Assembly: GCF_009828925.2 (NCBI RefSeq)
Contig: NZ_WUTY02000001.1
Coordinates: 1,642,492-1,706,491 of the forward strand
DNA length: 64,000 nt
DNA from: Methylicorpusculum oleiharenae
Lineage (GTDB): Bacteria; Pseudomonadota; Gammaproteobacteria; Methylococcales; Methylomonadaceae
Direction of reading: 5' to 3'
Shown: positions 15,225 through 35,025 of the stretch, piece by piece
Numbering within the stretch: position 1 is the stretch's first letter
Layout: each line of letters opens with the position of its first letter
Position numbers and translations under genes: made by a program
Notes under the pieces: generated by a model
The model's input: only the letters and a program-made list of their open reading frames with translations
What the model was told of the DNA's origin: nothing
The model's database searches: none

Positions 15225-16349
15225 CTAAAGGGCTGTGGTTGTATATTTAACCGCATGATCATTACCCGAAATATTCAAATCACCATTACTCGTAAAGCGT
15301 ATTTGAATATGGCCCATTTTTTCGTTAATAGATTTTCTATCTTTGGCGATGGATCGGAGTTCCCTTTCCACCATGCTTTCCCGTTTAATCCTTTTATTTG
15401 CTTGAGGATCTCTGGTAATTAAAAAATGGGAAGATAACGTTTGTAGCTTATTAATATTATTGGCTGTTGGTAAGCTGCTTCGATTGTAGGGAGTTGCCAT
15501 TGATAAAGGCAATTTAATCAACAGCTCCCGCCAAATCTTATCGTGATACCCGGTTTCACTGCCATGGTGAGCAACCTTAAATAATGAAGCGGCAGGTAGA
15601 CTTAATTCGCTAATAATATTGTTTTCGAAAATGGCAGACCAGCCTGTCTGTGGGTTGCCGGTTTCCTCCAGGTCAGAACCTAACAGGGCCGAAAAATTAC
15701 CGAAAGAAAAATGAAGTGCCACAGCATTGAGATTTTCGCTTGTCGGTACAACATTTCTAGTGCGGCGTTTACCTTGTTTTTGTGTCAATTGAGTTAAGGT
15801 TGCAATAGATTGGGTGACGGCAACGTCGCTAGGTGATAAGGCAACTAAACGTGATAGGACCGTATTTCTGTAATCGAAAAAAGTATGTCTGTTTTTGACG
15901 GGTGCAAAGCGGTTTCTATCTTTTGTCTCAATGAGAAATTCTATAATTTCTCTGAATTCCCGAATGTCCTTATCGGTATCAGCGAAGAAATCTTTTTTAT
16001 ATAGTGCTGCGAGTTGGAAAGCTTCTTTTTTCAATAGAGCGATGGAGCAATACAACTTTGCGTTATGACAAGCCTTTAACAAGGCTGATGCCCCTTCGAT
16101 ATGGTCTGAATGCCAATGTGTGATTAAGATACCAACCACTTGTCGGCTTACATCCACCCCAATGGACTGTAAGTAATTAAGGGCAACTGGTTGTTTGGTA
16201 CTCGGGCAAAGGCAACTGTCAATGATAAACCAGCGGCCTTCTCCAAAGTTAAGTACTACACATTCACCAATTCCGGGGCCGAAAAGGGATATTTCAGCGC
16301 AAGCGATATCCGGTGGTGTATTTTCAATCGGCGAGAAAAAAATCAGCAT
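15225..16349 (-). CDS. MBL-fold metallohydrolase, ComEC-like
   Basis: Metallo-beta-lactamase-fold hydrolase of 374 residues without signal peptide or membrane segments. The metal site THWHSDHIEG is at residues 77-86. A second acidic site (LLGSDLEETG) and the KVAHHGSETG motif follow, a combination typical of the ComEC/Rec2-like branch. Its start overlaps the preceding gene by 26 bases. It is the last gene of a three-gene, tightly overlapping operon. The substrate is unknown; nucleotides, nucleic acids and phosphodiesters are usual for the branch. Confidence 0.8.
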   Translation of the reverse strand: MLIFFSPIENTPPDIACAEISLFGPGIGECVVLNFGEGRWFIIDSCLCPSTKQPVALNYLQSIGVDVSRQVVGILITHWHSDHIEGASALLKACHNAKLYCSIALLKKEAFQLAALYKKDFFADTDKDIREFREIIEFLIETKDRNRFAPVKNRHTFFDYRNTVLSRLVALSPSDVAVTQSIATLTQLTQKQGKRRTRNVVPTSENLNAVALHFSFGNFSALLGSDLEETGNPQTGWSAIFENNIISELSLPAASLFKVAHHGSETGYHDKIWRELLIKLPLSMATPYNRSSLPTANNINKLQTLSSHFLITRDPQANKRIKRESMVERELRSIAKDRKSINEKMGHIQIRFTSNGDLNISGNDHAVKYTTTAL

Positions 16350-16824
16350 ACTCCTCGGCCAAATTTTCAGCCTGTTTGATTTCTGTCGCTGTCCAGGGTG
16401 GTAGGCGGCGGAAACGGATAGTCGAAAACCGTTCCCTGCTATATTTTTGCCCCTGTCTATATCCTATGTACCAATCGAATAATGCACCAGGTTCGATAAG
16501 TAGTTGATCTTTAGTATCTATTTCGTCCCTTGATAAAACAATTAATTCGTTTGGATTTTCGGGATTGGTGAGATCTTCTAATTGAACGGTTAATTCTTCC
16601 TCGTTTGAACTGACTATGACGCCGCGCCATCGCTGCCTGATTTCTTCTCTTGGCTGAGTAAGATCAATTATATCGAAAGGCAGTTTTTGGCTTCGCGGAC
16701 GAATATCTGGTTCTTTGGTAGAAAAGATATCTGTACCGTCTTTACCATACAGGTATTCGTTTGGTTCCTGTTGATAATGATCTGTAGTATCTCTTTCTGA
16801 CAAGCTAGCTACAGCAGTACTCAT
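16324..16824 (-). CDS. Conserved-looking protein of unknown function in the MBL operon
   Basis: Not recognised. It has 166 residues, is soluble and acidic, with a disordered N-terminal third. A beta-rich middle (RWRGVIVSSNEEELTVQLED, about residues 67-86) looks like a small barrel, and Arg/Pro-rich IRFRRLPPW lies near residue 140. ATG overlaps the stop of the upstream gene (ATGA), and its own end overlaps the MBL gene by 26 bases. This arrangement suggests stoichiometric production and possibly a complex with the hydrolase. Confidence 0.6.
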   Translation of the reverse strand: MSTAVASLSERDTTDHYQQEPNEYLYGKDGTDIFSTKEPDIRPRSQKLPFDIIDLTQPREEIRQRWRGVIVSSNEEELTVQLEDLTNPENPNELIVLSRDEIDTKDQLLIEPGALFDWYIGYRQGQKYSRERFSTIRFRRLPPWTATEIKQAENLAEEYADFFLAD

Positions 16825-17516
16825 ATGGTTTGATTCAGTTGAGATTCCATGACGTTCTTAGTGAGATTTTTGGCAAAAAATAAAGACTGATCCCAATTTG
16901 ACTCAAGCACCTTTATCATGGAATTTGCGTTTGAATCTTTCACTTCAACATGATTGTTAATGCTGAATTGTAGCGTATAAAGTCCTGCTTGAGGAAACAC
17001 GTTGATTTTAGGTCGAATGTAGCCTTCTAAATCATCTGGTCTGGGAAAATTCATTGTCAAATCCCATAGACCAAATTCCTTTTGTTTGCTTTCATCAATG
17101 TCACCTACGAAGGCCGCCGCCTGTTTCCAGCAGTCTGCAGGCGCTAAGTTGCGACCAAGTTGTGTCCATTTTTCCTGATCGGGAATTTTGATGACAGAAT
17201 TAAAGTTCATGCCAATTTGATTGATCGGAGTTTCGCTCAATAATGAAAAAGTATGGGTAACTAAGTCCTTTATTGATTGATATTCGGTAGCAAGTGGTGT
17301 GAGTATTGAAAATTTGTTCAACAAAACCGTTAGCTTACGTTCGTTCGGTAATTCTATTTGGGCTAAATCAGGCAAGCTAATAATTTCGTCTTGGCTATAA
17401 TCCCATTCTTCAACAATTTCTTTTCGGATAAACCATTCCGGATGAAATATTTTAGGATTCATGCTCCCAATTAGAACTATGCTTGCTTCTTCTCTGATAA
17501 TTTCCCAATCGCTCAT
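16821..17516 (-). CDS. Uncharacterised protein, first gene of the MBL operon (TIGR04255-like)
   Basis: It has 231 residues, is soluble, and begins MSDWEIIREEASIVLIG followed by NPKIFHPEWF. That opening resembles the uncharacterised TIGR04255-type family (from memory, not verified). The start at 17516 is preferred; the frame is open to a TTG at 17549. No catalytic motif is apparent. Its stop overlaps the start of the next gene by 4 bases. Role unknown; the location beside a defence-like island suggests an accessory function. Confidence 0.6.
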   Translation of the reverse strand: MSDWEIIREEASIVLIGSMNPKIFHPEWFIRKEIVEEWDYSQDEIISLPDLAQIELPNERKLTVLLNKFSILTPLATEYQSIKDLVTHTFSLLSETPINQIGMNFNSVIKIPDQEKWTQLGRNLAPADCWKQAAAFVGDIDESKQKEFGLWDLTMNFPRPDDLEGYIRPKINVFPQAGLYTLQFSINNHVEVKDSNANSMIKVLESNWDQSLFFAKNLTKNVMESQLNQTI

Positions 17517-17790
17517 ACTCGCCCAGATCCCATTAGCTTTGATGCCCAATCAATTGACCGCAGTCAAGCAAGAATTATAGATGATGAAAAGGCGTAAAAA
17601 TGATTTGAAGTATATGGGGTACAGGGTGTTTCAATCAAGAAATTTTATACTTATGAACGACAGGTATAAATTTTAGTACGGCCATTAAAGTCTAAGGCAC
17701 AGAGGTTTGCAACGGGTCGTGAGCTGACTGCGATCTTCTCGAAAAATTGTCGGTTCAAATGTAAGGTATACAACGCGACTAGGTGCGCCA

Positions 17791-17826
17791 AATAGGATGT
17801 GCCGACGTTAGGAGGCGCATCGCTCG
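17791..17826 (+). repeat. REP copy (GTAGGATGTG type), left of the RAYT remnant
   Basis: A 36-base sequence starting AATAGGATGTGCCGACG and ending GGCGCATCGCTCG. Its reverse complement recurs at 18201-18236 with one mismatch. The same core (TAGGATG...GACG...AGGAG..GCGCATC) recurs at 47345 and 48104. Paired REPs around a RAYT gene are the classic arrangement. Confidence 0.85.
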
Positions 17827-17888
17827 CGTCACTCAATACCATCAATCTCGTAGTTTTCATCTTGGATTCAAGTTATAAGGCCAATTGA

Positions 17889-18185
17889 TTACAGACCCTG
17901 TTTTACCCGATTCCAATGAATATAATCAACATGGCGATTGTAATCGTCTTGGTCTTCAATCAAATGTGCCCAAAATCGTCGTTGCCACTTGTGTCCTTTG
18001 GGGATATTCCACGCTCGCGGCGCTTTTGACGGCTTTGTTAAATTCTTTCGCAGTGGTCGATTGCCCTATAAAATCTTCCTTATATCAATATTATCAATCA
18101 GCAGGTGAATGTTTTTTCGTTCGGCAAGATTGACGGTGAAAAACCATAGGGCTTTTGGTAGGTAAAAACGTCGGTATTCTGCCAT
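17889..18185 (-). pseudogene. REP-associated tyrosine transposase (RAYT) remnant
   Basis: Read on the minus strand from ATG at 18185, the N-terminus gives MAEYRRFYLPKALWFFTVNL, typical of RAYT/TnpA-REP proteins, but hits a stop after 39 codons. The C-terminus is in other frames: ERGI in one, then WQRRFWAHLIEDQDDYNRH and VDYIHWNRVKQGL before a stop at 17889. The whole spans 99 codons against about 150-180 for an intact RAYT, so it has an internal deletion and frameshifts. The HUH motif region is lost. It lies between inverted REP copies, the usual home of RAYT genes, and is certainly inactive. Confidence 0.85.
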
Positions 18186-18200
18186 GCTGTGTTTGGTACT

Positions 18201-18236
18201 CGAGCGATGCGCCTCCTTACGTCGGCACATCCTATT
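18201..18236 (-). repeat. REP copy (GTAGGATGTG type), right of the RAYT remnant
   Basis: Reverse complement of 17791-17826 with a single mismatch over 36 bases (TTA against TAA in the middle). Together the two form the inverted REP pair that bounds the RAYT remnant. Confidence 0.85.
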
Positions 18237-18414
18237 AAGCCCGTAATTAACGGAGCGTCATCACCTTTTGAATGCAGGAGTAAGGGTGACTTTTCATTGG
18301 ATTCATCAAGCAATGAGTTTTTTCCATTCTGTCAAACTTTAACTTTTCAAGATACAATTCCGAATACTCTATAAAACCAGTCAACTGATATGCCAGCGGC
18401 ATGATGGAGAACCG

Positions 18415-19107
18415 GTGAAGCGACCTATTTTTGCGGCCATTCCGTTTGGCTCCAGTCAAAAAACTAACGAAACCATGACCAACATCAAAGTCGACATTGA
18501 AAGTTCGGTCGAGAGCCTGCCTGGCGTTAAAAAATCCGAAAACGGCTGGAGTCCCCGGCAAGTATTGTTATTCAGCGGGCATATGATTGACGCGCCTGAC
18601 CGGCCAACGCCCCGTTTTCCTGCCGACAAGGAAGGCATTGCCGCCCAAAAAATTGCCGAAATTCTGGAGAGCCTGTCCGCAGGTCCGGAAGATTTGGCTT
18701 TAACCCAGGGTGCCAACGGCGGTGATATCCTGTTTGCCGAGGCCTGTTTGACACGGGGCGTCAAGCTCATCCTGCTGCAACCGTTCGATGAACCGACGTT
18801 CATTCAAAAATCGGTTATTACCGGCGGCACTCGCTGGAAAGAGCGCTATTTGAACATTAAACCTCATGTTCATACCAAATCCGCACCTGCCGAATTAGGT
18901 GCACTTCCTGAAAATATGGATCCTTACGAACGCTGCAACCTCTGGTTACTGGATAGTGCGCTGGCTTATGGCGTCGATAAAGTCCGGTTTATCTGCTTGT
19001 GGAATGGTGCGGGCAGCAATGATCCGGGAGGGACTGCGCATATGGTGAATGAGGTAAAATCGAGCAAGGGGCAAGTCTATTGGTTGGATACTCGCAAATT
19101 GTGGTGA
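18415..19107 (+). CDS. SLOG-like (Rossmannoid nucleotide-sensor) protein
   Basis: Soluble protein of 230 residues. The core LLFSGHMIDAPDRPTPRFP (about residues 51-69), then LALTQGANGGDILFAEACL (about 96-114) and VKLILLQPFDEP (about 117-128), has the Rossmann-like Gly-rich pattern of SLOG proteins. SLOG domains are proposed sensors or processors of nucleotide signals in bacterial conflict systems (family knowledge). The C-terminus has conserved-looking blocks YERCNLWLLDSALAYG and GGTAHMVNEV. The GTG start is supported by GGAG five bases upstream. It runs in the same direction as the SIR2/TIR gene, 290 bases before it, so functional linkage is inferred. Confidence 0.65.
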   Translation: MKRPIFAAIPFGSSQKTNETMTNIKVDIESSVESLPGVKKSENGWSPRQVLLFSGHMIDAPDRPTPRFPADKEGIAAQKIAEILESLSAGPEDLALTQGANGGDILFAEACLTRGVKLILLQPFDEPTFIQKSVITGGTRWKERYLNIKPHVHTKSAPAELGALPENMDPYERCNLWLLDSALAYGVDKVRFICLWNGAGSNDPGGTAHMVNEVKSSKGQVYWLDTRKLW

Positions 19108-19136
19108 AGCAGGTTAAAGATGCATGTAACTATTCA

Positions 19137-19254
19137 GCGGAACAACCAGGCAAAGGTGGTGCACCCTGTAGGTTGCGGTTGGCGATAGCCAACCCAACAT
19201 TTAAAGGCCAGGGTTTTAATTGTTGGGTTGCGAAAAGCAGGCAACCCAATCTAC
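19137..19254 (+). repeat. REP/BIME cluster (GTAGGTTG type), left of the TIR-STAND-patatin genes
   Basis: The segment 19137-19200 (GCGGAACAACC...GGTGGTGCACC...GTAGGTTGCGGTTGGCGATAG...) recurs inverted at 26402-26465 with about four-fifths identity. From 19168 to 19254 two REP units face each other (GTAGGTTG... and ...CAATCTAC), a BIME-like layout. It fills most of the 290 bases between the SLOG-like gene and the SIR2/TIR gene. Confidence 0.8.
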
Positions 19255-19397
19255 TCTGAGTAATTACAGATGCGTTTGGGTTCTGTGCTGCTTTAATTTG
19301 ATAACCTGAATAGTATCAAAATGCTTTCATTACCCCAAAAATGAAAGTACTCTCGTATTGATCGCGCACTTTCATAGCAACCCTTGAGGGGGCCATT

Positions 19398-20801
19398 GTG
19401 GCGGAAAAATTAAATCATCTTGACGATCGCTTTTGGAATCGCTTGCTGAAAGCCATCGAAGAAGGCCAGGTCGTGCCGGTTATCGGTTCCCAGTTATTGG
19501 TCTGGCAAGATCAAGACCAGGTTCAGACGCTACAGCAGCGTATCGCCAAGCACCTGTTGGCTCTTTATGGCATAAATGCGCCTGCCAAGCTGACGCCACA
19601 TAGAGAACTGCACGAAGTCGTCACGCTGCTCAAACCGACCGTCAATCTTCAAGATCTTTATGGCGATATTGCCGATGCACTGGAAGCGGTGCGCAATGAC
19701 CCCGGCTTTAAATTACCCGCTGCAATTGAAAAGATTGCGGCCATCACCTCGTTTCGATTGCTGGTGACCTTGACGCCGGACACATTACTGGCTCAGGCTT
19801 TGCGTAAAAGAAGCGCCGTCATTGAAATAGTGCATTCGCCGAATTTGCCCACCAGTGAAGCCGGCGATCTGACGATTGACTGGCTAAAGAAACCGGGTGA
19901 AGTCAATTTGCTGTATCTGTTCGGAAAGATGCAATCGACGCCGGTATTTGCGATTCATGATGAAGATACACTGGAATACACGCATAACCTGCTGTCACGG
20001 GGCAGCAATGTGCCGCTTCGCTTTTTGGGTGAGTTGCAGCAACGCGGCTTGTTGTTTCTCGCTACGAACTTCCCGGATTGGTTCAGCCGATTTTTGTTGC
20101 GCTTAACCAATCAAACCCGGCTTTCAGATAAGAAAACCCGGGCCTGGCTGGTGGATGACGGGCAAAATCAGCCGGAATTGACGTTGTTTTTGCAAGGTTT
20201 CAGCCGGGAAACTGAAATCATTACCGAACTCACTCCACAAGCCTTTGTTGATGAATTGTATGCCCGCTGGTCGGCCAGAAACACGCCATCGTCCCCTTCA
20301 TCCGGCACTGATAATCGCGTTCAATTTCCCGATCCAGCAAGTGTAGCGTTTTTTATCAGTTACTCGCGTGCCACGGATTTACCTGCAGCGGAAAAGCTGT
20401 ATCAAACCCTGCGTGAACAAGGATTGTCCGACAATGAAATCTGGTTTGACCGGACGGCAATAGAGCCCGGCGGCGACTTTCAAAAACTGATCTATGACGG
20501 AATTCGCACCTGCCGTTACTTTTTACCGCTGATTTCATCGGCTGCCGATCGCTTTGACGAAAAATTCTTTTACCGTGAATGGAATGCCGCCATCGACAGA
20601 AGTAAAGGCATCAGCGGCCGTGAATTTATCGTCCCCGTTATTCTCGATGAAGACTACAACCCGCAAGGATATCAACGCGTACCCCAAGAGTGGTCGGGCT
20701 CCATCGATTTCGGCCATGCGCCGGGAGGGTTGGCCGATGCCCGCACGCGTCAACATTTGACCAAGTTGATACGCGAGTTGCGCCGCGGAGAAAAACCATG
20801 A
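19398..20801 (+). CDS. SIR2-like plus TIR domain protein
   Basis: It has 467 residues. The N-terminal ~300 residues look like a divergent SIR2-like domain: VVPVIGSQLLVW near residue 29, LLYLFGKMQSTPVFAIHDED near 172, and LLFLATNFPDWFSRFLLRL near 217. The C-terminal TIR domain spans about 313-462. It opens VAFFISYSRATD, and the presumed catalytic Glu is Glu394 in FYREWNAAI. Both families include NAD-consuming defence enzymes. One half may sense and the other act; this is inference. The GTG start has GAGGGGG upstream. The stop overlaps the next start (ATGA), so it is coupled to the STAND gene. Confidence 0.8.
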   Translation: MAEKLNHLDDRFWNRLLKAIEEGQVVPVIGSQLLVWQDQDQVQTLQQRIAKHLLALYGINAPAKLTPHRELHEVVTLLKPTVNLQDLYGDIADALEAVRNDPGFKLPAAIEKIAAITSFRLLVTLTPDTLLAQALRKRSAVIEIVHSPNLPTSEAGDLTIDWLKKPGEVNLLYLFGKMQSTPVFAIHDEDTLEYTHNLLSRGSNVPLRFLGELQQRGLLFLATNFPDWFSRFLLRLTNQTRLSDKKTRAWLVDDGQNQPELTLFLQGFSRETEIITELTPQAFVDELYARWSARNTPSSPSSGTDNRVQFPDPASVAFFISYSRATDLPAAEKLYQTLREQGLSDNEIWFDRTAIEPGGDFQKLIYDGIRTCRYFLPLISSAADRFDEKFFYREWNAAIDRSKGISGREFIVPVILDEDYNPQGYQRVPQEWSGSIDFGHAPGGLADARTRQHLTKLIRELRRGEKP

Positions 20802-22531
20802 TGCCTCATCAGAGTTTACAGTTGAATGCGCAAAATCCCTGGCCCGGATTGGCCACTTATGATGAAACCGCCCGTCATTTCTTTTATGGCAGGGAAGAAG
20901 AGACGCAGGAATTGTTGCGATTAATCCGTTTATCACCGTTGACCGTGCTGTACGGAAAGTCCGGGTTAGGTAAAAGCTCATTATTGCAAGCGGGTTTGTT
21001 CCCCAAATTACGTCAGGAGCATTTTTTACCGGTTTATATCCGGCTGAATAAGGCCAATGTGGAAGCGATGCCTTTCCTTGATCAGGCCGCCTATTGGTTT
21101 CAGGAAGCCTTGAAGTCCGCAAAAGCCGACTGTCCCGATTTTACCGCAGGGGAAAATCTTTGGTGTTATCTGCACCGGCGCGATCTGGAAATCTGGAGTA
21201 CGGATAATCAATTATTGACTCCGGTTTTTGTTTTTGATCAGTTTGAAGAAGTTTTTGCAGGAGCCAATCCGGATTTATCAGAGCCTCAGGTTTTATGCCA
21301 TGGCTTAGCCGACTTGATAGAAAATAAATTACCGGCTCATTTTGCCGAGCAGAATCTCGACAAGCTGTTGATCGAAAAACTGGATTTACTCACGCAACAT
21401 TACCGGGTCGTGCTTTCTTTTCGTGAGGACTTTTTGCCGGCACTGAAAAACTGGGAGCGTGATGTTCCTTCGTTACTCAAAAGCTGGTGCCAGTTAAAAC
21501 CCCTATCCAGAGAACGCGCTATTCGCGCCGTGTCTCAGTCGGGAGCAGCCATTCTGGCGGAGGGTGCGGCTGAAGAAATCGTTGATTTTGTCGGCAACCT
21601 TGATAAATCAAAGACCGATGGAGACTCTACAATTGAGCCGGTTTTACTGAGTTTGTGCTGCTATCAGTTAAATGTGCGCCGGCAAGTAAAAAAATCACCG
21701 TGTATCGATGCGGAGTTGCTGCGTAACGAAGGTCAGGAAATTCTGGAGAGCTATTACGCCAATGCGCTTGCCTCAATGCACCGTTCCGTCGCTGAATTCA
21801 TTGAAACCCGGTTAATTCAAGGTGACCGTTATCGCAGCAGTTACCCCGTTCAGTTGGCTTTAGACGAAGGTTTGCTGAACCAAAAACAATTGACCGAGTT
21901 GACCGACCGGCACCGGTTGCTACGAATCGATCAGCAACTGGGTACACCGCGAGTGGAATTGATTCATGATCGTCTGGTTTCCGTGGTGCGTAAGGCCAAA
22001 GAACGCCGACGTGTTAAAAAGGAAATAAAGCGCGCCTGGCTGTTGGCATTAGCCGCCATATTTGTGGTTGTGTCGTTTAGCGGCTGGCAACACTGGGAAG
22101 GCTCAACCAAGACCGAGTTAATCATCCAGACGGCCGAAGCCATTGCAAAACGTTCACGCGATCAGCTCCTGGTGCCATTAAATCAGACGATTGCTCCGCC
22201 TGACCGGCCTGTCAGCATAAAAAAAGGGGCCCTTATTTATGTGCAGATTCGAAATGACAGCCAGCGTCAAGCCGCCAGTCAAATTCAGAAATTATTGGTG
22301 GACCGGTATTACAAGGTGCCGGGCATAGAAACACTGGCAACGGGGCCCTCAACGACGGAGGTGAGGTATTTCAGAAATAATGAAGCAGGGGAGGCTCAGG
22401 CTATTGCCGATGTGTTGCTGCAACAAAAAATTCCGAACGTGACCACCAAATACATTGCCGGTTTTGAAAATTCAAAAGCGATACCACCGGGGCAATATGA
22501 AATCTGGTTCGCTACGGATGCGTTTAAGTAA
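20798..22531 (+). CDS. Membrane-anchored STAND NTPase (nSTAND1-like)
   Basis: It has 577 residues. The P-loop is at about 50-60 (YGKSGLGKSSLLQAG), Walker B at about 141-153 (TPVFVFDQFEEVF), with STAND-type opening NPWPGLATYDE...FFYGREEE. A winged-helix-like region (RLLRIDQQLGTPRVELIHDRLV) precedes one membrane helix at about 411-429. The final 150 residues would then lie outside the cytoplasm and show alternating strands ending PPGQYEIWF. STAND proteins are switch-like sensors that oligomerise on a trigger. The start ATG overlaps the SIR2/TIR stop. Its partner effectors are probably the flanking genes. Confidence 0.82.
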   Translation: MMPHQSLQLNAQNPWPGLATYDETARHFFYGREEETQELLRLIRLSPLTVLYGKSGLGKSSLLQAGLFPKLRQEHFLPVYIRLNKANVEAMPFLDQAAYWFQEALKSAKADCPDFTAGENLWCYLHRRDLEIWSTDNQLLTPVFVFDQFEEVFAGANPDLSEPQVLCHGLADLIENKLPAHFAEQNLDKLLIEKLDLLTQHYRVVLSFREDFLPALKNWERDVPSLLKSWCQLKPLSRERAIRAVSQSGAAILAEGAAEEIVDFVGNLDKSKTDGDSTIEPVLLSLCCYQLNVRRQVKKSPCIDAELLRNEGQEILESYYANALASMHRSVAEFIETRLIQGDRYRSSYPVQLALDEGLLNQKQLTELTDRHRLLRIDQQLGTPRVELIHDRLVSVVRKAKERRRVKKEIKRAWLLALAAIFVVVSFSGWQHWEGSTKTELIIQTAEAIAKRSRDQLLVPLNQTIAPPDRPVSIKKGALIYVQIRNDSQRQAASQIQKLLVDRYYKVPGIETLATGPSTTEVRYFRNNEAGEAQAIADVLLQQKIPNVTTKYIAGFENSKAIPPGQYEIWFATDAFK

Positions 22532-22545
22532 TCAGAAAACGTTAC

Positions 22546-22685
22546 TATACCTTTCGCACTTCAAATTTCGGCAGTGCCTAAGGAGGCAACGGGTTGTTCG
22601 GCAAAGGCTTTGCCAGCATGGATGGTTTTAAGGCGTCCTTTGACGGGCACCCCGGTGCCGAATTTCGATCTACGATGGGTACAAT
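22546..22685. repeat. Multi-hairpin dispersed element, copy 1
   Basis: About 140 bases, nearly identical at both ends to 49958-50093. Local hairpins are GCCTAAGGAGGC, CAAAGGCTTTG and GGCACCCCGGTGCC. An outer stem pairs TTTCGGCA with TGCCGAA, and the ends carry TATACC / GGGTACA. It lies inside the operon between the STAND and patatin genes. Reading through it produces a false 61-residue extension of the patatin protein. Confidence 0.88.
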
Positions 22686-22756
22686 CAGAGCGAAGCACAA
22701 CAGTCCGTCGCGCTGAAGAGTTACCAGGAAACATAATAATAAATGAGGGGGATGTA

Positions 22757-25369
22757 ATGGCTAATTCAAATGAAATAAACGCTCAAACCGGATCTGATCG
22801 CGAGAAACTACCCGATCTTCAAGAAATAAAATTAAGGGTCAAAGACTATAAAGGCAAACAAAATTTCGGTGATGCGCGTGATTTGCTTGAAAAAGCGCTC
22901 AGGGAATACCCGGATGAAGTCTGGATCACACAGCAACTGGCGCTATGTACCTATAAAGATGAAGAACTCTATCCAAAAACCCGGCTTAAAACGGCGCTGA
23001 AATTGCTGGATTCTATAGGACTGCGCAGAGCGGACAATAAAAATTCCGAAACGCTGGCATTGGGCGGAGCCATTTACAAGAGAATGTGGGAGTTTGACGG
23101 TCAACTTGAGTTTCTCTACGAGAGTCTGGCTTTTTATCGAGCGGCTTTCGAACGAAATCCCGAGCAAGACATGGGTTATGGCGGTATCAATGCCGCGTAT
23201 TTGCTGGATTTACTGGCGGCGCGTGCGGAAAGCCTGGAAACCAGAAGCGGCTTAAAATCCAAAGAAGCGCCGAAGTTTCGCAAAGAAGCTAAGGATCTGC
23301 GGAACAAGGTTCGCGAGCAACTATTATCCTGTTTGCAAAAAAATCCTGAACTGGCCGGTCACTACTGGTTTTTAGTGACGTTGGGTGAAGCCTGCTTTGG
23401 CATGGGACTTTACGCCGAAGCCGCACAATGGCTGGATAAGACTCAGTCAGTCAGTGTCGAAGAGTGGGAGTTGCAAACCACCTTTCGGCAATGGGTAGGG
23501 ATCGCCCGGGAACAACACATCGATGCTCCTGATGAAACGCAAAACCCTGAAGACTGGCATGAAGCATGGCAAACGTTGCAGCATTTACTGGGTGATGAAA
23601 CGGCTGAAGCTTTGGTGTGTCATCGCGGCAAAGTTGGGCTGGCTTTATCCGGCGGGGGTTTCCGTGCCTCGTTTTTCCATTTGGGAGTCATGGCCCGGCT
23701 CGCCGAAGTCGATGCTTTGCGCGGAGTCGATGTCTTGTCTACCGTATCGGGCGGCAGTATTTTGGGGGTGCAGTATTATCTGGAAGTGCAGAAACTTTTC
23801 GAAAATTCGCCAAAAAAATTGAGCCGGAACGATTATCTGGATATCGTTGAAAAACTGCAAAATGATTTTCTCAAAGGCGTCGAAACCAATATCAGGATGC
23901 GCGCCTTTGGCAATTTTGCCGACAATGTGAGGATGCTATTTTCCAACAGCTATTCACGCAGTCATAAATTGGGCGAATTATATGAAAGGAATCTTTATTC
24001 CAAGGTTGCTGACGGAAAAGGTGACCAGCCGAGGACCATGCCTGACTTGCTGGTAAAGCCGGTGCAAGGTCGATTCCAGGGCGACAGTTTTAAGCCCAAC
24101 GCCCATAACTGGCGGCGAGTAGCCAAAGTGCCGGTGTTGTTGTTAAATACGACGTCGCTTAATTCCGGGCACAACTGGTTCTTTACTGCAGCCTGGATGG
24201 GCGAACCGCCCGGTTTGATCGATGTAGACAGCAACGAGCGGTTCCGGCGGCTTTATTATTATCAGGCGCCCGAGCATTTGAAAAAATTCCGGGTGGGTTC
24301 TGCGGCGGCCGCTTCTTCTTGTGTTCCCGGTTTGTTCGAACCCTTGGTTTTAGATAAGCTTTATGAAGACCGCACCGTCAAGCTGGTCGATGGCGGCGTC
24401 TATGATAATCAGGGCGTACAAGGCTTAATCGCGGAAGGATGTACGCTGATTTTATGCAGCGACGCCAGCGGTCAAATGGCCGACTCTTATGATCCTGCGG
24501 AAGATCCTGGCGGCGTTTTACTGCGCACGGTTTCCGTGCTGCAGGACAGGGTTCGCGAATCTCAGTACCAGGATTTACAAGTACGGCTTGATAGCCGATC
24601 ACTGCAGGGCGTATTTTTTATTCATACCCAAAAAGAACTGGATCCCAAACCTTTGGATTGGATAGGATGCCAGGACCGCAAGCCTGATATTCCTACATCT
24701 AAAGTAACCTCATACGGCATTGCAAAGGACTTGCAAAAGAAAATTGCAGGCCTGCGTACTGATCTGGATTCATTTACCGAAGTGGAAGCCTATGCGCTGA
24801 TGGCCAGCGGTTATTTGATGGCTGACAAGCAATTAAAAGACTTGGATCAGCAGCATAAAAATGAGGGTAAACCGGGTACTTGGGGGGATTTTAAGGTTTA
24901 TGCCGAACAGCAAAGAGACTGGGAATTCCTGAAACTGAAAGATGTTCTGGCTGAGGAAGCCGGTGAGCAAGCGTCAGAAAAAAGAAAAGATCTGGAACTG
25001 CAATTAAGCGTTGGCAGTGAATTATTCTTTAAAGCCTGGCAATTGATACCCTGGCTTAAAATAGTATCGGGTGCTGCCTTCGTTTTGATCGCGTGGCTAT
25101 CGATTAAAATGGTAATTTCTCAATGGGATAACACGCTTTTTTCTATCTCGGTAGGCAAGGCCATGATTGCTTTGCTGGGTTTTGTCGCCGCTTTGTTTTT
25201 TCCGGCTTTAAAGTGGTTAAACCCGAAGGAAGAAGCACGAAGCTGGGTCATCAAGTTTGCCATTGCACTCACAGGCTATGCCATGGCCAAGTTGCATCTG
25301 GCTATTTTTGATCCGTTGTTTTTAGCCCGGGGACGTTTGGTTCGCTTGCTTGATTTGGGCAAAAAATAG
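22757..25369 (+). CDS. TPR (TRAFs-binding-like) plus patatin phospholipase, membrane-anchored
   Basis: It has 870 residues. The N-terminal ~280 are helical TPR-like repeats of the type called TRAFs-binding in conflict proteins (SETLALGGAIYKRMWEF, INAAYLLDLLA). The patatin domain spans about 290-640: oxyanion motif SGGGFRAS near 297, nucleophile segment STVSGGSILG near 330, and catalytic Asp in VDGGVYDNQG near 543. Three hydrophobic helices follow (about 765-860), placing it at the inner membrane. Patatins hydrolyse phospholipids, a known effector activity in abortive defence. ATG at 22757 has GAGGGGG upstream; an in-frame ATG at 22574 lies inside a dispersed repeat and is rejected. Confidence 0.85.
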   Translation: MANSNEINAQTGSDREKLPDLQEIKLRVKDYKGKQNFGDARDLLEKALREYPDEVWITQQLALCTYKDEELYPKTRLKTALKLLDSIGLRRADNKNSETLALGGAIYKRMWEFDGQLEFLYESLAFYRAAFERNPEQDMGYGGINAAYLLDLLAARAESLETRSGLKSKEAPKFRKEAKDLRNKVREQLLSCLQKNPELAGHYWFLVTLGEACFGMGLYAEAAQWLDKTQSVSVEEWELQTTFRQWVGIAREQHIDAPDETQNPEDWHEAWQTLQHLLGDETAEALVCHRGKVGLALSGGGFRASFFHLGVMARLAEVDALRGVDVLSTVSGGSILGVQYYLEVQKLFENSPKKLSRNDYLDIVEKLQNDFLKGVETNIRMRAFGNFADNVRMLFSNSYSRSHKLGELYERNLYSKVADGKGDQPRTMPDLLVKPVQGRFQGDSFKPNAHNWRRVAKVPVLLLNTTSLNSGHNWFFTAAWMGEPPGLIDVDSNERFRRLYYYQAPEHLKKFRVGSAAAASSCVPGLFEPLVLDKLYEDRTVKLVDGGVYDNQGVQGLIAEGCTLILCSDASGQMADSYDPAEDPGGVLLRTVSVLQDRVRESQYQDLQVRLDSRSLQGVFFIHTQKELDPKPLDWIGCQDRKPDIPTSKVTSYGIAKDLQKKIAGLRTDLDSFTEVEAYALMASGYLMADKQLKDLDQQHKNEGKPGTWGDFKVYAEQQRDWEFLKLKDVLAEEAGEQASEKRKDLELQLSVGSELFFKAWQLIPWLKIVSGAAFVLIAWLSIKMVISQWDNTLFSISVGKAMIALLGFVAALFFPALKWLNPKEEARSWVIKFAIALTGYAMAKLHLAIFDPLFLARGRLVRLLDLGKK

Positions 25370-25500
25370 CGAGGCTGTTGTTTGAGCTTTGAGACGGATA
25401 GCTGACCATCCATGGCTCTGGATGCCGCGCTTCCCTATGGGCATGACGGCGCTTTGTTAAATTTGATGTAATTTTCAGCGTAGATTGAATTAGGTTTTAC

Positions 25501-25546
25501 CCGCCAACCCAACCTACGCGCTGCATCATCTTAATTTTGTTTTAAC
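25501..25546 (-). repeat. REP copy (GTAGGTTG type) between patatin and zinc-ribbon genes
   Basis: On the minus strand it reads AACAAAATTAAGATGATGCAG then CGCGTAGGTTGGGTTGGCGG, which aligns with the copies at 19137 and 26402. It separates the patatin stop from the next gene by about 190 bases, so that gene may have its own promoter. Confidence 0.75.
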
Positions 25547-25560
25547 GTGGAGGTGTGGCT

Positions 25561-26262
25561 ATGAAAACCGTCTCATATAAAGCAGGAACTGATTGCCGCC
25601 GGGCGGCACAATACCTGATTACCATCCTGATAGTGTTGCCGGTTGGGTTGTTAATCAGTCTCTTACCCGTTATGACTGAAATAAAATTGGCCCATAAACT
25701 GATGGCGGCTGATTGCGTTGTGTTTGCAACAAAAATGACGGCCTTGATTCTGTTTTATCGTTTTGCTGAACATGCGATCGCTGCGATTGTTGAGGACGGC
25801 AGAGCTCGTTCGTTTGTTCGCAATATTGGGAAACCGCTAACCATTTTAGTGATTGTCATCATCGCTCAGGGATTGCTCTGGCAAGTGATAGGGCCGTTTG
25901 TAGCTTCGACCGGCAAAAAGATCTTTTTTGTCGCGGCCATCCTGCTGATTTTAGCCGCCAGCGGGTGGCTGATCTTCAAAGCTTACCAATCCGCTCCCTA
26001 TTTGATGGAGGCAGTACAAAGGTTTCGTAATCCGTTGGCGAAAGTCATGGCGGTTATTACCAGTCCATGCCCTTCATGCGGTCACCGGCTGTCTAAATCA
26101 GCAAAGTTTTGCAGCCAATGCGGAGAAAAAACAGTTGAACCGCTGACGTGCATTCATTGTGGCGCATCGCTGGCACCGGATCAAAAGTATTGCTGGCAGT
26201 GCGGCGCAACGACCAATCCCGGTGACAGCAAGGACACTGAGGTGTTTTTTGATGGTGAATGA
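25561..26262 (+). CDS. Membrane protein with C-terminal double zinc ribbon
   Basis: It has 233 residues. Four hydrophobic helices at about 18-38, 50-66, 95-115 and 119-138 are followed by a cytoplasmic tail with two zinc ribbons: CPSCG...CSQCG at about 171-190 and CIHCG...CWQCG at about 198-216. The family is not recognised beyond this layout. GGAGG lies 8 bases before the ATG; an in-frame GTG is at 25555. It is co-directional with the patatin gene but separated by a REP, so membership of the same system is an inference. Confidence 0.7.
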   Translation: MKTVSYKAGTDCRRAAQYLITILIVLPVGLLISLLPVMTEIKLAHKLMAADCVVFATKMTALILFYRFAEHAIAAIVEDGRARSFVRNIGKPLTILVIVIIAQGLLWQVIGPFVASTGKKIFFVAAILLILAASGWLIFKAYQSAPYLMEAVQRFRNPLAKVMAVITSPCPSCGHRLSKSAKFCSQCGEKTVEPLTCIHCGASLAPDQKYCWQCGATTNPGDSKDTEVFFDGE

Positions 26263-26906
26263 GTTTGTGTAGCGGATACGCGGAATTTTACTTCTGCATT
26301 TCAGTGTCAAAACGGTATCGATGAGTCACTTGGTTTTTTTGTAATTATTCAACGCAGGTTTGGTTACATGCTTTTCGCGTAACTACTCGCCCGCTTGAAA
26401 TGTTAGGTTGGCTATCGCCAATCGCAACCTACACGGTGCATCACCTTTATTTTGTTGTTCCGCTCAGGGGGATGGTAGGGGCTGGTATAGGAAAAACAAT
26501 AGTCCTATAGGGCAAAGTAGACGGTGTTTGTCTCCCGTAAAACAGGATTGATCATGACAACAACTTAGCCAACTGCGGATCGTTTCGCAATAACACGCAC
26601 CACTTGGCAACCGACGACAGCTCGGCATCGGGCCTGCTCATATCTCTTATCTGGAGAAGTTAACTTTTGGCTTTTGGTATTGCTCAATCAAACGTGAAGC
26701 CTTTGTTCAAACCTTTCTACGCGTTTCCGTTAATGGTTCATGCGTCAATAGACGCCCAGGGCCACTTGTCATAATTTGTCTATGAACTTGCTAACGACAT
26801 GCCATGCCCATACCAAAGCGCGGATCGCCTTCCAAAATATCGTTGCCAAACTGCCTTAAGGTTTTTGAATGCGCCGATTTTATGCGTTGCAGATGCATGC
26901 AGAGAG
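26263..26906. other. Gene-poor stretch with REP copy and eroded sequence
   Basis: It lies between the zinc-ribbon gene and the small protein gene of the RM operon. It contains the inverted REP copy at 26402-26465. The remainder shows only short open stretches on the minus strand (for example 29 codons beginning MSRPDAELSSVAKW near 26644). They look like coding debris but match nothing I can name. No RNA gene was seen. Confidence 0.45.
26402..26465 (-). repeat. REP copy (GTAGGTTG type), right of the TIR-STAND-patatin cluster
   Basis: Reverse complement matches 19137-19200: GCGGAACAAC, then GGTGATGCACCG, then GTAGGTTGCGATTGGCGATA. With the left copy it brackets the SIR2/TIR, STAND, patatin and zinc-ribbon genes in inverted orientation. 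Confidence 0.8.
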
Positions 26907-27471: not shown

Positions 27472-29452
27472 CAGGTTGTCTCCAGTTGGCGCATTTTGGC
27501 CATTTCGGGTTCCTGTATCCAGCCTTTGTCGACTTCCAGCTTGAGCTGGGCATAAAAGGCATCGATTTCGCCGCCGAAGCGTTGCCATAAATCCTTGGCG
27601 GCCATTTCGCCTTTTTGATGAGCGAGTATCGCGGCCAGTGGCGCTTGTTCCTTGGTGCTGGGTGGTGTACCCAGGCGCAACGAGGCTATCAGTTCGGTTT
27701 TGGGGCTTTCAAGGGTTCGTTCTCCTCGGGTTCGGTAGTGATGCCGGTAAAACTTGAAGTAACTGCTGTAGCGAAAAGCGCGGCCAACTTTTGCTTATGT
27801 TCAAGCTGGTTTCGCCATGACTGGCAAAAAGCTGTCATTACGTCCAGATTTTTCAGAATGTTGCGTTGTTCGGCTAATGGCGGTATTGGCAAAGGAAAAC
27901 TTCGCAACTGGGTCATGTTAATAGATGCCAGATTGGTCGTTTGTTTTGACGCACCGGCAAAGTAATTTCGACCGATACCTGAGTTAAAGATCAGTTCAAC
28001 CCATTCGTTTAACAACCGTTCGGAGGGAACCCTAGCTTTAAAAACATGATTTTGATGTAGACAGTTGTCGATACCGCCCTTCCAAATCGCCGTTCGCCCA
28101 ACCTTATCCCAGTCGCCACCTTCCGTAATCAGTAAATCGCCTTCCAAAACTTGATATTTCGTTAATTCTGCTTTGGTTATCTGAATGGTCTTCAGCTGAT
28201 CCAACTTAAAAAAACCTCGCTGGACATTCGCCACAGACAAATACGGACAAGTAACCACATCCTTGCCTCGCAAGTCGCGACCTTTGGTTACGCCACCTAT
28301 GACGACTGCAACCTCGTCAAAAGGTATAACAGCCCAATGTTCCGGGTAGTTTAATTCGACGTGTTCGACATTTAGGATGAGTTTTTGCTTTCTCATCAAT
28401 CCTGAAGAAACGTATTCTGACCGTAACGTAGAACAAGCAGAGATGATTTCCGTTAAATCGGACTGGTCGCTTGTTACTTTTGCTAACAAGCCTAAAACCG
28501 CTAAATCCTTGAGATTAGCAATAAACTCATTGATGTCCTCCGGCACCTGAAACAGCCTGCTGAAGTTTTCTTCGAGGAAGGTCCAGGCAAGTTGCAATTC
28601 GTGCGGACTGGTGGAAGCGCCGACGGCTTGCAGGGTGGACTGGCGCAGATTGTTTTGCAGGTTGCGGCGCTGTTGCTGCTGGAGTTCCAGCTTGTCGCAC
28701 AAGGCCATCAGCTCATCGACTTTGGTGACGATACGGGATTGTTCGGCAAGTGGTGGTAACGGAATTGGCAATTCACGAACCTTATCCGCATTTAAGTTTT
28801 GTACGACTGCACCAGCAGCTGCCTTCAGAAAGAAATTGGCGACAATCGGCGATGAAAGTAAGTGATATAGGTAGTCCTTTTCAAGACATGATGGTGGGTG
28901 AATCCTTAACCATCCGTCATGAATACATCCTTCTATGGTTGTGATGTATGGACGGCCAAAACTCATTGAGTTTGTTAATAAAAAGTCGCCCGGATAAACC
29001 ATGCGAGTTTTAACTAAACCCTCTTTCTTTATTTTTTCTCTCGTCGAAGTGATGAATTTAGAACCTTTGACAGTGTCTCCAATTTTTATCCAGTTCAATC
29101 CATCTGGATCATTGGTTAAAAAATCATCAATTGGCCGGGGCGATCCTCCACGCTCAATTTCAGCTATATCACCAAGGCGCGCCCATTCCCAACCCTGAGG
29201 TTTTTCGAAAGGCATTTCATTTGGACTGATCGTTGTTAGAGTTTTCGGAAGTTTTGATTTGCTATTTCTTAATACGTCGTGGTTGCCCGATGAAATGCCT
29301 TTGAGTAACTCATTCTCTAGTGAATCAGTGGGGTCTTGTGCGAGCAATTTGCCCTGTACTGCGAGGGCTAATACCATTTCGCGCAGCCGCGCCACTCCTC
29401 CCGGCGCATTAGCAATATGTCCAAACTCAGCCAAAAACTGCTTAGCATCCAT
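27471..29452 (-). CDS. hsdS: Type I restriction specificity subunit HsdS, frameshifted near the C-terminus
   Basis: Sets the DNA target of the type I system. Two target-recognition halves are visible, each ending in the conserved helix motif (LPIPLPPLAEQSRIVTKVDE near residue 235; PLPIPPLAEQRNILKNLD near 535). The current frame stops at 27689 after 587 residues (KAPKPN). In the next frame the sequence continues TELIASLRLGTPPSTKEQ...AKDLWQRFGGEIDAFYAQL to a stop at 27471. One extra C in the CCCCAAAA run (plus strand 27698-27705) would restore about 660 residues. ATG overlaps the DUF1016 stop (TGATG). Confidence 0.85.
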
Positions 29453-30501
29453 CAGGCTTCGCTCCCGTTATTGTTATCCAGTCGCTGACGCGAGCGTGTT
29501 ATCGCGTCGTGCAATTTTTGTTGCAACACGGCCTTAGGCGGCAGTTCGGTCAGATATTCGGCAACGTGGATGCCGGTCTGGTCCAGCTCCAGCAGTTCGA
29601 TTTGTTCCTGCTTCTTGCCGCTACAGAGAATAATGCCCAGCGGCGAGGCTTCGCCGGGTTCCTGTTCATATTTCGCCAGCCAACGCAGGTATAGCTCCAT
29701 CTGGCCTTTGTCGGCGGCTTTGAAGTCGCCCAGTTTCAGGTCGATGGCGACCAGACGTTTCAAGCGGCGGTTGTAAAACAAGAGGTCGATGTAGAAGTCG
29801 TCGTTGTCGATCTGCAAGCGTTTTTGCCGGGCGACAAAGGTAAAACCGGCGCCCAATTCCAGCAGGAAGTTTTCCAGTTCGCGCAGGATGGCGTCTTCCA
29901 GGTCTTTTTCCAGGTAACGGTCTTGCAGGCCCAGAAAGTCGAGCACATAAGGGTCTTTCAGCACTAGGGCGGGGGTGATGTCACCGGTCTCTCGCAACGC
30001 GGCCAGTTCGGCGGTCAATACTTCATCGGGCTGGCGTGATAGTGCGGTGCGTTCGAACAGCATGGAGTCCAGCCGACCTTGGAGGGTACGGGTGCTCCAA
30101 CGTTCGGCTCGGCACATTTCTATATAGAATTCGCGTTTCAGCGGGTCGTCGATGTAAATCAGGCTGCGCAGATGGGTCCAGCTTAATTGTCTACTCAGTG
30201 CGTAGACAATCTCTTCGGTTGGAAATACCTCGGCAAAGCGCAGCATATGACGCAGGTTTTTGCTGGAAAAGCCGCGCCCGTAGTCGGTTTCCAGTTGCTT
30301 GGCCAAGCTAATAACGATTTGTTCGCCGTATTCGGCGCGCTCGCCATTGAGCACTTCGCGCCGGATGCGCTGGCCGATATGCCAGTACAGCAGGGTCAAC
30401 GCGCTGTTGACGGCGATAGCCAGCTGCGCGCGGCTTTGGCCTATCAGTTGGCGAATATCGGTCAACAGGGCTTGCGAGTCTGGATGGTCGATGGGTTTCA
30501 T
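29452..30501 (-). CDS. DUF1016 / YhcG-type PDDEXK nuclease in the RM operon
   Basis: It has 349 residues. An N-terminal DUF1016_N helical region (LYWHIGQRIRREVL, then GRGFSSKNLRHMLRFAE) is followed by a C-terminal PD-(D/E)XK-like core with FYIDLLFYNRRLKRLVAIDLK near residues 233-254. That core holds the acidic residues and the terminal Lys. YhcG-like proteins often occur inside type I RM loci; their exact role is unsettled. The gene is coupled to hsdM (ATGA overlap) and to hsdS (TGATG overlap), so it is an integral operon member. Confidence 0.88.
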   Translation of the reverse strand: MKPIDHPDSQALLTDIRQLIGQSRAQLAIAVNSALTLLYWHIGQRIRREVLNGERAEYGEQIVISLAKQLETDYGRGFSSKNLRHMLRFAEVFPTEEIVYALSRQLSWTHLRSLIYIDDPLKREFYIEMCRAERWSTRTLQGRLDSMLFERTALSRQPDEVLTAELAALRETGDITPALVLKDPYVLDFLGLQDRYLEKDLEDAILRELENFLLELGAGFTFVARQKRLQIDNDDFYIDLLFYNRRLKRLVAIDLKLGDFKAADKGQMELYLRWLAKYEQEPGEASPLGIILCSGKKQEQIELLELDQTGIHVAEYLTELPPKAVLQQKLHDAITRSRQRLDNNNGSEA

Positions 30502-32249
30502 GCTTCCGCCTCGGCGGTAAAGTGATGCGCCAACGCGGCGGCCAGTTCGCTTTTTAAAAGATTTTCGGTTTCCTCTATCTCGCCGAGCAGGGTTTTATAT
30601 TTGTCCAGCAGTACGTCGGGATCGTGGCTTTCTTCCACTGCGGCATTGGGATTTTTCATGTCCAGATTATAGATCGGCCAGTACAGACGATCGCCGGCGG
30701 CCTGGGCATCGCGGGCAGCCAAACGCAAAGTATCGGCTTGTTCGCGCAAGCCGGCCATTTGTTCTTCCACTTTTTTGCGATACTCGGCATCGTTGATGCC
30801 GGTCAGCGAGGTGCGCAAATCCCTGACTTGGTTTTCCAGCGCAGCCGCTTGATTGTTCAAGTCCTCGGACTTGTCCCAATGCGGCTTGGCGGCCGCTTCG
30901 GCTTGCTGTTTCAAGGTTTTAAAGTCGACTTTCCAGGCCAGCTCGCTTTCCATCCGGTCGGCGAAGTCGTTGTCTTCCTTGCCCCACCAGGCTTTTTCGG
31001 CCTCGAATTCTTCCAGGCGGATCGGTTTGGTTTTGGAATAGCTTTTGTAACCAGACGGATACGGATGTTCGTAAAACCAGATGGTTTCGGTCGGCTTGCC
31101 TTTGTTGAAAAACAGCAGATTGGTTTTGATGGTGGTGTACGGCGCAAACACGCCTTTGGGCAGGCGAATCACGGTATGCAGGTTGCACTCGCTTAGCAGC
31201 AGTTCTTTGAGTTTGCCCTTGATGCCATCGCCGAACATAAAGCCGTCCGGCAATACCACGGCGGCGCGGCCGTCTTCCTTCAGCAGCTTTTTGATGATCA
31301 GGGCCATGAACATGTCGGCGGTTTCGCGGGTTTTCAAATCGCCGGGATAATCGGAACCCACGCCGTCGTCTTCGTAGCCACCAAACGGTGGGTTAGTGAC
31401 CAGACAATCGACTTTTTCGTTGGCGTTCCAGTCGTTCCAAGCCCTACCCAGGGTGTTGCGACGTTCAATTTGGCTGGGTACTTCAATACCATGCAGCAAC
31501 ATGTTGGTGGTACACAGCAGATGTGGCAGCTGCTTTTTCTCCATGCCGCGGATCAGATCCTCAATGGCGCGTTTATCGTCGGAACCCGATTTATCGCTCA
31601 GTTGGCGAAGAAAATGGTCGATGGCGGCGGATAAAAAGCCACCGGTGCCGCAGGCCGGATCGAGCACGGTTTCGCGCTTTGCCAGATTGGGATTGAGCGT
31701 TTGCACCATGAACTGTGTGATGGCCCTAGGCGTGTAGAACTCACCGGCATTACCGGCACCGCGCAGGTCGCTGAGCAGTTGCTCGTAGACATCGCCCAAG
31801 TGGATACGGGCTTTGAAGTCGTGGAAGTTGATGGCTTCTTCCAGCTTTTCAATCACGGCCAGCATTTGCGGGCCGGATTTCATGTAATTGTTGGAATCCT
31901 CGAAAACCTGCTTGATGACTTTTTGGGTGGGGCCGTCCGCCGCGTCTATTTCCTTCAGTGTGGGAAACAGCTGGTTGTTGACGAAAGCGATCAGTTCGCT
32001 GGCCTGGATTTGCGGTTTTTTCTTGCCTTGTTCATCGGATTTATAGGCAGCCCAATTGCGCCAACGGAGATTTTCCGGCAACGGCGATTGGTAGTCGTTA
32101 TCGTCGTCTTCCCATTCTTCTTCGCGTTGGTCGAATACTTTGAGAAACAGCATCCAGGTCAATTGGCCGATACGCTGCGCGTCGCCGTCGACGCCGTCGT
32201 CCTTGCGCATGATGTCCTGGATGGATTTGATGGTACTGCTTAGATTCAT
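30498..32249 (-). CDS. hsdM: Type I restriction-modification DNA methyltransferase HsdM
   Basis: N6-adenine methyltransferase of 583 residues, a subunit of both the modification and the restriction complex. The N-terminal HsdM_N helical bundle is followed by the SAM motif LDPACGTGGFL near residue 197 and the catalytic NPPFGG near 287. A Lys/Glu-rich coiled-coil segment with ALENQVRDLRTSL lies near 470-520. It begins 39 bases after the hsdR stop and ends overlapping the DUF1016 gene. Confidence 0.95.
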   Translation of the reverse strand: MNLSSTIKSIQDIMRKDDGVDGDAQRIGQLTWMLFLKVFDQREEEWEDDDNDYQSPLPENLRWRNWAAYKSDEQGKKKPQIQASELIAFVNNQLFPTLKEIDAADGPTQKVIKQVFEDSNNYMKSGPQMLAVIEKLEEAINFHDFKARIHLGDVYEQLLSDLRGAGNAGEFYTPRAITQFMVQTLNPNLAKRETVLDPACGTGGFLSAAIDHFLRQLSDKSGSDDKRAIEDLIRGMEKKQLPHLLCTTNMLLHGIEVPSQIERRNTLGRAWNDWNANEKVDCLVTNPPFGGYEDDGVGSDYPGDLKTRETADMFMALIIKKLLKEDGRAAVVLPDGFMFGDGIKGKLKELLLSECNLHTVIRLPKGVFAPYTTIKTNLLFFNKGKPTETIWFYEHPYPSGYKSYSKTKPIRLEEFEAEKAWWGKEDNDFADRMESELAWKVDFKTLKQQAEAAAKPHWDKSEDLNNQAAALENQVRDLRTSLTGINDAEYRKKVEEQMAGLREQADTLRLAARDAQAAGDRLYWPIYNLDMKNPNAAVEESHDPDVLLDKYKTLLGEIEETENLLKSELAAALAHHFTAEAEA

Positions 32250-32288
32250 GTTTAAGTGTTTATGTTGTTGTGCGTCGGCGGCAATGGC

Positions 32289-34703: not shown

Positions 34704-35025
34704 GCCTCTTTCCTTAGATTTAAGCGAACCCACGATAATCGGTAATTTTGCCTATTGTCCATAATCATAAAAATTATCAATCTATCGTTCATGAAGACTA
34801 GGCATCACCCCGGCAAATGCAGTTCAAGGTGGATGGGCTGTCGCTTAACTACCCAACCAGTCGCCACCATGACTTTCCCAATAATTTCAAAAACACACTC
34901 CCATTATGCTTGGCCTTAAGGAACGACGGCAACCATTAATGCAAACAAAGTTATCTAACAAGCCTGGGCAACCCTACAAAAACCGGGAAACTTCAGCGGG
35001 ATTAAACATGACGTTTTCAAATAAA
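34704..35025. other. 322-base intergenic region between hsdR and the metal efflux operon
   Basis: The presumed promoter of the RM operon must lie here, but no convincing pair of boxes was found. A 70-codon plus-strand frame at 34906-35118 overlaps the DUF3240 gene and has no supporting feature. No repeat was recognised. Confidence 0.4.

Follow-up and report, generated by a model that had tools for sequence, protein, structure and literature searches.

The TPR-S domain, whose full name in Pfam is 'Tetratricopeptide Repeats-Sensor', was reportedly predicted by Burroughs and Aravind in 2020 to recognize NAD+-derived signals, with effectors that vary. The same domain is carried by animal ASK kinases. 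In PMC9503650, TIR is treated as an NAD enzyme and SLOG as a possible sensor domain, and Kaur et al. 2021 (PMC8195603) describe nSTAND1 as a clade of counter-invader NTPases; PMC7159879 offered no decisive point. Here, we analyze a locus at positions 18415–26262 of a 64,000-nucleotide stretch (the window) of the Methylicorpusculum oleiharenae genome (5.85 Mb). Open reading frame (ORF) calling gave five ORFs, g1 to g5, all in one direction, as an earlier reading of the DNA letters (the sequence-only reading) had stated. Domain content and conserved neighborhoods support a defense or conflict cluster that combines a TIR enzyme and a membrane patatin with a STAND switch, in line with the proposal of that reading. 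More specifically, we tentatively propose, at somewhat less than an even chance, that g1–g4 form a compact modular anti-invader island in which STAND-controlled TIR signaling acts on a TPR-S-gated membrane patatin. To our knowledge, no experiment has been done on this island type.

The eight proteins encoded at 15225–26262 were scanned with Pfam, NCBIfam, and PADLOC, whose models carry no cut-offs. None of the eight had an NCBIfam match that reached the cut-off of the model, and the best PADLOC match among them (E = 2.4e-6) was to the TIR part of g2. The g2 gene (19398–20801, + strand; 467 amino acids) combines a SIR2-like region with approximate limits of 19455–20267 and a TIR domain at 20349–20666. 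In the window protein, Pfam TIR_2 matched with an E value of 3.5e-17 and SIR2_2 matched weakly, below its cut-off (E = 0.01). Both models matched all 17 members of the g2 family at E values up to 0.1, the best SIR2_2 value being 8.6e-12. A profile of the N-terminal part of the family gave 97.8% when compared with SIR2_2 proteins encoded at 18 loci in the same bacterial family, versus 0.5% or less with seven other profiles. These comparisons indicate that the N-terminal domain of g2 is a real sirtuin homolog.

The roles assigned to the Asn, His, and GAGxS motifs of sirtuins and to the glutamate of TIR domains are general knowledge. In the profile alignment of the g2 family, the sirtuin Asn (TTNxD) is replaced by T, S, or C and the catalytic His (HG) by F or L in 17/17 members. 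The position of the GAGxS loop is not covered by the profile alignment; on inspection, the loop is likewise replaced in all of them (GSQLL, GPDAL, GPELL, etc.). Glu394 of the TIR domain is kept throughout. The sirtuin domain thus looks catalytically dead, and an active SIR2 NADase was rejected as a candidate on the replacement of the three motifs. Because the sirtuin motifs are lost and the TIR glutamate is kept in every member, the cluster probably contains one NAD enzyme, not two. The sequence-only reading had assigned two NAD-acting families to the locus; the TIR domain and the sirtuin homology stood, but the second active NAD enzyme probably does not. A search of solved structures by sequence returned one TIR protein for g2 (E = 0.011) and nothing else convincing. 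This family defines a sirtuin-like group that has kept its homology, lost its catalytic motifs, and remained fused to an intact TIR domain, with a STAND gene adjoining it in every counted locus.

The STAND partner g3 (20798–22531, + strand; 577 amino acids) matched Pfam nSTAND1 with an E value of 2.3e-28 and carries a Walker A motif (GKSGLGKS) in an NTPase region at about 20837–21982. Its likely start is the ATG at 20798, which overlaps the g2 stop codon as ATGA (20798–20801), rather than position 20690. Both the overlap and the STAND switch with a membrane helix had been described in the sequence-only reading and are borne out here, the single hydrophobic helix (22025–22081) having been located by hydropathy. 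No effector domain was detected on the STAND protein, and no Avs model appeared among its PADLOC or NCBIfam matches. From hydropathy and charge, the C-terminal tail (22082–22528) is predicted to face the periplasm. It gave a borderline match to LytR_C (22.1 bits against a cut-off of 22.2), which recurred in L103 and was not found in L044, L045, or L280. A periplasmic tail of this kind, the borderline LytR_C matches, and the MAP3K_TRAF_bd match found in TPR-S relatives would suit a stress- or envelope-signaling apparatus, an analog of the animal ASK signalosome, rather than an anti-phage system. We consider this improbable, because the distribution is patchy (g1 in 25 of the 201 genomes sampled from the order), modules are exchanged, type I restriction genes adjoin the locus, and g1 occurs in seven plasmid records.

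The product of g4 (22757–25369, + strand; 870 amino acids) matched Pfam TPR-S (PF20308; E = 1.3e-17) at 22862–23206 and Patatin (E = 1.1e-16) at 23639–24418. The patatin motifs SGGGFRAS, TVSGGS, and VDGGVYD are present, and hydropathy gave two hydrophobic C-terminal helices (25043–25099 and 25145–25201), in agreement with the membrane TPR-patatin of the sequence-only reading. The likely start is the ATG at 22757, since codons 1–61 of the longer ORF consist of an interspersed repeat. This repeat (22574–22756, + strand) is probably noncoding and would form a false N-terminal extension of g4. It has 55 further matches in the same genome, all of them in query residues 1–66; a 91% copy lies at 49958–50093.

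The first gene, g1 (18415–19107, + strand), was read from a GTG at 18415 preceded by GGAG; an ATG at 18475 is an alternative, and the true start is uncertain. Its conserved domain extends from near 18547 to about 19104. The window protein had no Pfam, PADLOC, or NCBIfam match, and the SLOG-like profile gave less than 6% in comparisons with TIR, DRHyd-like, LOG, and DprA profiles. At the motif level only, g1 is a candidate for the SLOG fold.

The conserved linkages were counted in samples, not censuses, of genomes from the family (61), order (201), class (229), and phylum (398). Matches in the order sample numbered 25 for g1, 19 for g2 (eight partial only), 44 for g3 (many partial), and 72 for g4 (many over the patatin part only). 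Full-length SIR2-TIR adjoins a same-strand nSTAND gene in 24/24 loci, namely 15/15 in the order sample, G203, L116, L146, L153, L164, three from the phylum sample, and one plasmid; a SIR2-TIR fragment at the edge of L144 was left out of this count. One ORF lies between the pair in G067, and the order is reversed in L146. The order g1–g4 is common to all three genomes of the genus examined (G000, G146, and G203). The g1–g2 gap, which in the window spans 19108–19397 and holds an interspersed repeat, is 144 bp in L103 and 63 bp in G146 (L104), where g3 and g4 are separated by 32 bp. SIR2-TIR, STAND, and TPR-S-patatin genes are contiguous in five genomes from three genera (the above three, G165, and G116). 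The island of G165 has additional TPR-S and CHAT-TPR-S proteins, and that of G116 has a second pair of SIR2-TIR and STAND-WD40-type genes. The closest SIR2-TIR homologs (>60% identity) lie downstream of a SLOG gene in 5/5 cases in the order sample. G144 combines a fused TPR-S-SLOG gene with SIR2-TIR and STAND and has no patatin; TPR-S is therefore retained where patatin is not. Type I restriction-modification genes (27689–34733) and a set with an MBL-fold hydrolase (15225–17549) lie nearby, as they might if g1–g4 were chance neighbors within a defense island, with no joint function. Such an accident is very unlikely given the same gene order in 3/3 genus genomes and the extended versions in two others, the ATGA overlap, and the consistent placement of extra TPR-S genes described below.

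The g1–g4 cluster can be seen as a compact four-gene unit of a broad island type. One scan of a genome contig collection covering 84,980 species yielded 198 g1 relatives. The best 80 were analyzed, with source labels including Methylococcales, Nitrospira, Nitrosomonas, Accumulibacter, Chlorobi, Acidobacteria, and a cyanobacterium. In 57 of these 80, a single protein carries both the SLOG-like domain and TPR-S, and 14 of the remaining 23 have a separate TPR-S gene in the locus. The 80 loci contain 34 additional TPR-S genes, of which 30 are downstream on the same strand, three upstream, and one downstream on the opposite strand. Of the 53 loci that had a called SLOG ORF and 4 kb or more of downstream DNA, 42 contained at least one island module. 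Nine loci escaped the ORF picker in this count, which used module definitions taken from related islands and TPR-S models that cross-hit. TPR-S is joined to patatin in g4, to TIR/DRHyd-like domains and SLOG elsewhere, and to CHAT and an alpha/beta-hydrolase in L044, as expected of a shared sensor. If TPR-S proves to bind the messenger, a single ligand code would account for the interchange of patatin, CHAT, and other effectors. Other modules are a peptidoglycan amidase or muramidase and TIR/DRHyd-like-TPR-S proteins (PADLOC TIR effector, 2.6e-8), the DRHyd label being our own reading. The related island L047 encodes a CapV-like patatin (NF041079, E = 1.4e-33, below cut-off). Plasmid records gave g1 matches in seven entries, and phage records gave none. 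By domain composition, SLOG-like and TPR-S proteins with varying effectors make up a broad island type, not an unprecedented kind. Two further island proteins recur: c3, hydrophobic and about 520–580 amino acids long (L042 13236–14906 and relatives), had no Pfam, NCBIfam, or PADLOC family match and gave 1% or less with TIR-class profiles, and c5, about 330–375 amino acids long (L047 9006–10019 and relatives), had no significant family match.

Here, we propose a mechanism for g1–g4 from their domain content, the intact TIR, patatin, and Walker motifs, the loss of the sirtuin motifs, the conserved linkages, the varying effector modules, and purifying selection, all of which were observed. We infer each biochemical step, as well as the trigger, the messenger, and the sensing domain. 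The membrane nSTAND1 protein would detect an invader or an envelope cue and oligomerize with g2, its partner, whose pseudo-sirtuin region may serve as an adaptor or nucleotide-binding scaffold. Clustering would activate the TIR domain, which would then convert NAD+ into an ADP-ribose-type messenger. The messenger may be bound by the TPR-S domain of g4, by the SLOG-like g1, or by both. Binding would release the membrane-anchored patatin phospholipase, and the resulting damage to the inner membrane would abort the infection.

Several observations weigh against this proposal. The topology of g3 and g4 was derived from hydropathy only, and the hydrophobic helix is absent in one of the 11 STAND relatives scanned (L164). 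For g1, the YAcAr SLOG model matched four of 48 family members, all below threshold (E = 0.04 or worse), profile comparison with DprA gave 2.3% (controls, 1.0% or less), and a search of solved structures by sequence gave no convincing match. The SLOG-like label that the sequence-only reading gave to g1 is supported at the motif level only. A SLOG gene lies in the island for only seven of the 15 full-length SIR2-TIR matches in the order sample (G000, G146, G165, and G144, once in G117, and twice in G116); the other eight have no SLOG island, or none within 16 kb. For the three phylum-sample pairs of SIR2-TIR and STAND, 20 kb of sequence gave a match to neither SLOG nor TPR-S. No TPR-S was detected in nine of the best 80 SLOG loci, three of which (L116, L142, and L146) end within 4 kb; in L153, SLOG, SIR2-TIR, and STAND are present and TPR-S was not detected. 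The SIR2-TIR/STAND pair is also missing from the locus in six of 10 g4 homologs with at least 58% identity (G008, G092, G125, G167, G045, and G070). A DRHyd-like-TPR-S gene precedes the patatin in four of these six, and in G045 and G070 the g4 locus lacks a SLOG match as well.

The separate occurrence of the pair in the order and phylum samples, and of g4 homologs in those six genomes, would be natural if the locus held two independent modules, the STAND and pseudo-SIR2-TIR proteins killing by NAD depletion and the SLOG and TPR-S-patatin proteins having their own trigger. The pattern of sequence divergence is also in favor. In comparison with G146, identity is 94–99% over about 19800–22550, about 84–90% upstream, and 87–94% in g4 windows. 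The synonymous divergence (dS) from G146 is 0.22 for g2 and 0.07 for g3, versus 0.53 for g1 and 0.40 for g4. Comparison with G203 showed no such identity step around 19800–22550. The low dS and high identity to G146 suggest that most of g2 and g3 has probably been exchanged as a unit by recombination. Set against two modules are the SIR2-TIR, STAND, and TPR-S-patatin adjacency kept across three genera, the tight g3–g4 spacing of 32 bp in L104, and the location of all five closest SIR2-TIR homologs downstream of a SLOG gene. We regard independence of the modules as possible, with a good deal less than even likelihood. In a different reading, which seems to us rather unlikely, g2–g3 would be a plug-in detector cassette, consisting of a STAND protein, a pseudo-sirtuin adaptor, and a TIR messenger synthase, that is swapped as a unit between islands sharing a SLOG/TPR-S messenger code; the STAND protein would be a membrane receptor, and the messenger would open a TPR-S-gated phospholipase. 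If true, this bacterial pathway would use an inactive sirtuin as its signaling adaptor and TPR-S as the receptor of an NAD-derived signal. The g1–g4 genes are under purifying selection, the ratio of nonsynonymous to synonymous divergence (dN/dS) against three relatives being 0.05–0.21, with dS against G165 saturated at 2.7–3.4. The corresponding ratio for g5 is 0.20–0.22 (two relatives).

The fifth gene, g5 (25555–26262, + strand), encodes a membrane protein with four predicted helices and a Pfam zinc ribbon (E = 4.9e-11), and the sequence-only reading had counted it as part of a five-gene system. Its matches are scattered over 36/201 order genomes, and in G008, G092, G125, G165, and G167 the homolog is either on a separate contig or a long way from the island. 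In 10 g5 loci of about 3.6 kb (L093–L102), no neighbor matched any of eleven island profiles, and no protein from the flanks in the genus matched except g5 itself. The gene adjoins the island within the genus only; in G146 and G203, it follows g4 at a distance of about 800–1050 bp, and another ORF intervenes. Membership of g5 was thus rejected, as its homologs outside the genus lie elsewhere. The neighborhood survey proposed with the five-gene view upheld the order of g1–g4 in the genus and left g5 unlinked outside it.

Inverted copies of an interspersed repeat at 19136–19268 and 26340–26464, 75% identical, flank g2 to g5. Upstream of g1 are 39-bp inverted repeats (17791–17829 and 18198–18236) and the three-gene set on the − strand at 15225–17549, which encodes the MBL-fold hydrolase and proteins of 166 and 242 amino acids. 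The hydrolase matched Lactamase_B (1.4e-8), ComEC_Rec2 (3.6e-8, below cut-off), and the PADLOC models LmuA (1.2e-5) and RTasMBL (1.9e-5), and the other two had no convincing family match in Pfam, PADLOC, or NCBIfam. This set is possibly another defense unit. Downstream, the type I restriction-modification genes HsdS, HsdM, and HsdR lie on the − strand; a YhcG/DUF1016 nuclease gene separates HsdS from HsdM.

No named PADLOC or NCBIfam model corresponds to the g1–g4 combination, nor was the combination found in the literature searched, most subscription papers lying outside it. The claim of the sequence-only reading that no named system has exactly this composition thus holds for these model collections, but the kind is not unknown, since TPR-S is already described in Pfam as a sensor. 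Filing the cluster as Thoeris, Avs, or CBASS was rejected by tests of domain membership. Type I Thoeris (ThsA, SIR2-SLOG; ThsB, TIR) resembles it in that a single operon encodes TIR, SIR2-class, and SLOG-like domains, whereas here SIR2 is fused to TIR and has no active-site motifs, the SLOG-like protein is separate, and STAND and patatin proteins are added; PADLOC ThsB matched g2 over a partial stretch (E = 6.6e-4). SIR2 NADase effectors need an intact sirtuin NAD site, which g2 lacks. Avs/AVAST and bacterial NLRs share a STAND NTPase as the probable sensor-switch, whereas g3 belongs to the nSTAND1 clade, without a detected effector domain or an Avs profile match, and has a separate TIR partner. 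In the nSTAND1 counter-invader systems of Kaur et al. 2021 (PMC8195603), the effectors that accompany this clade include TIR and DRHyd; the main text does not use the words patatin, SLOG, or TPR-S. CBASS with the CapV phospholipase has a messenger-gated patatin, a gating that we propose here as well, whereas in g4 the patatin is joined to TPR-S and to hydrophobic helices, and no CD-NTase domain was found by Pfam, PADLOC, or NCBIfam in the eight proteins at 15225–26262. The closest likeness is to the TPR-S/SLOG/DRHyd-TIR systems, in which a TPR-S sensor, reportedly predicted to recognize NAD+-derived signals, is combined with varying effectors; the islands described here likewise join TPR-S to varying effectors. 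The cluster has the corresponding TPR-S domain in g4 and TIR_2 domain in g2, the latter with its glutamate kept across the family. It differs from those systems in that the TIR domain is fused to a degenerate sirtuin and paired with a membrane nSTAND1 protein, and in that TPR-S is carried on a patatin predicted to be anchored in the membrane.

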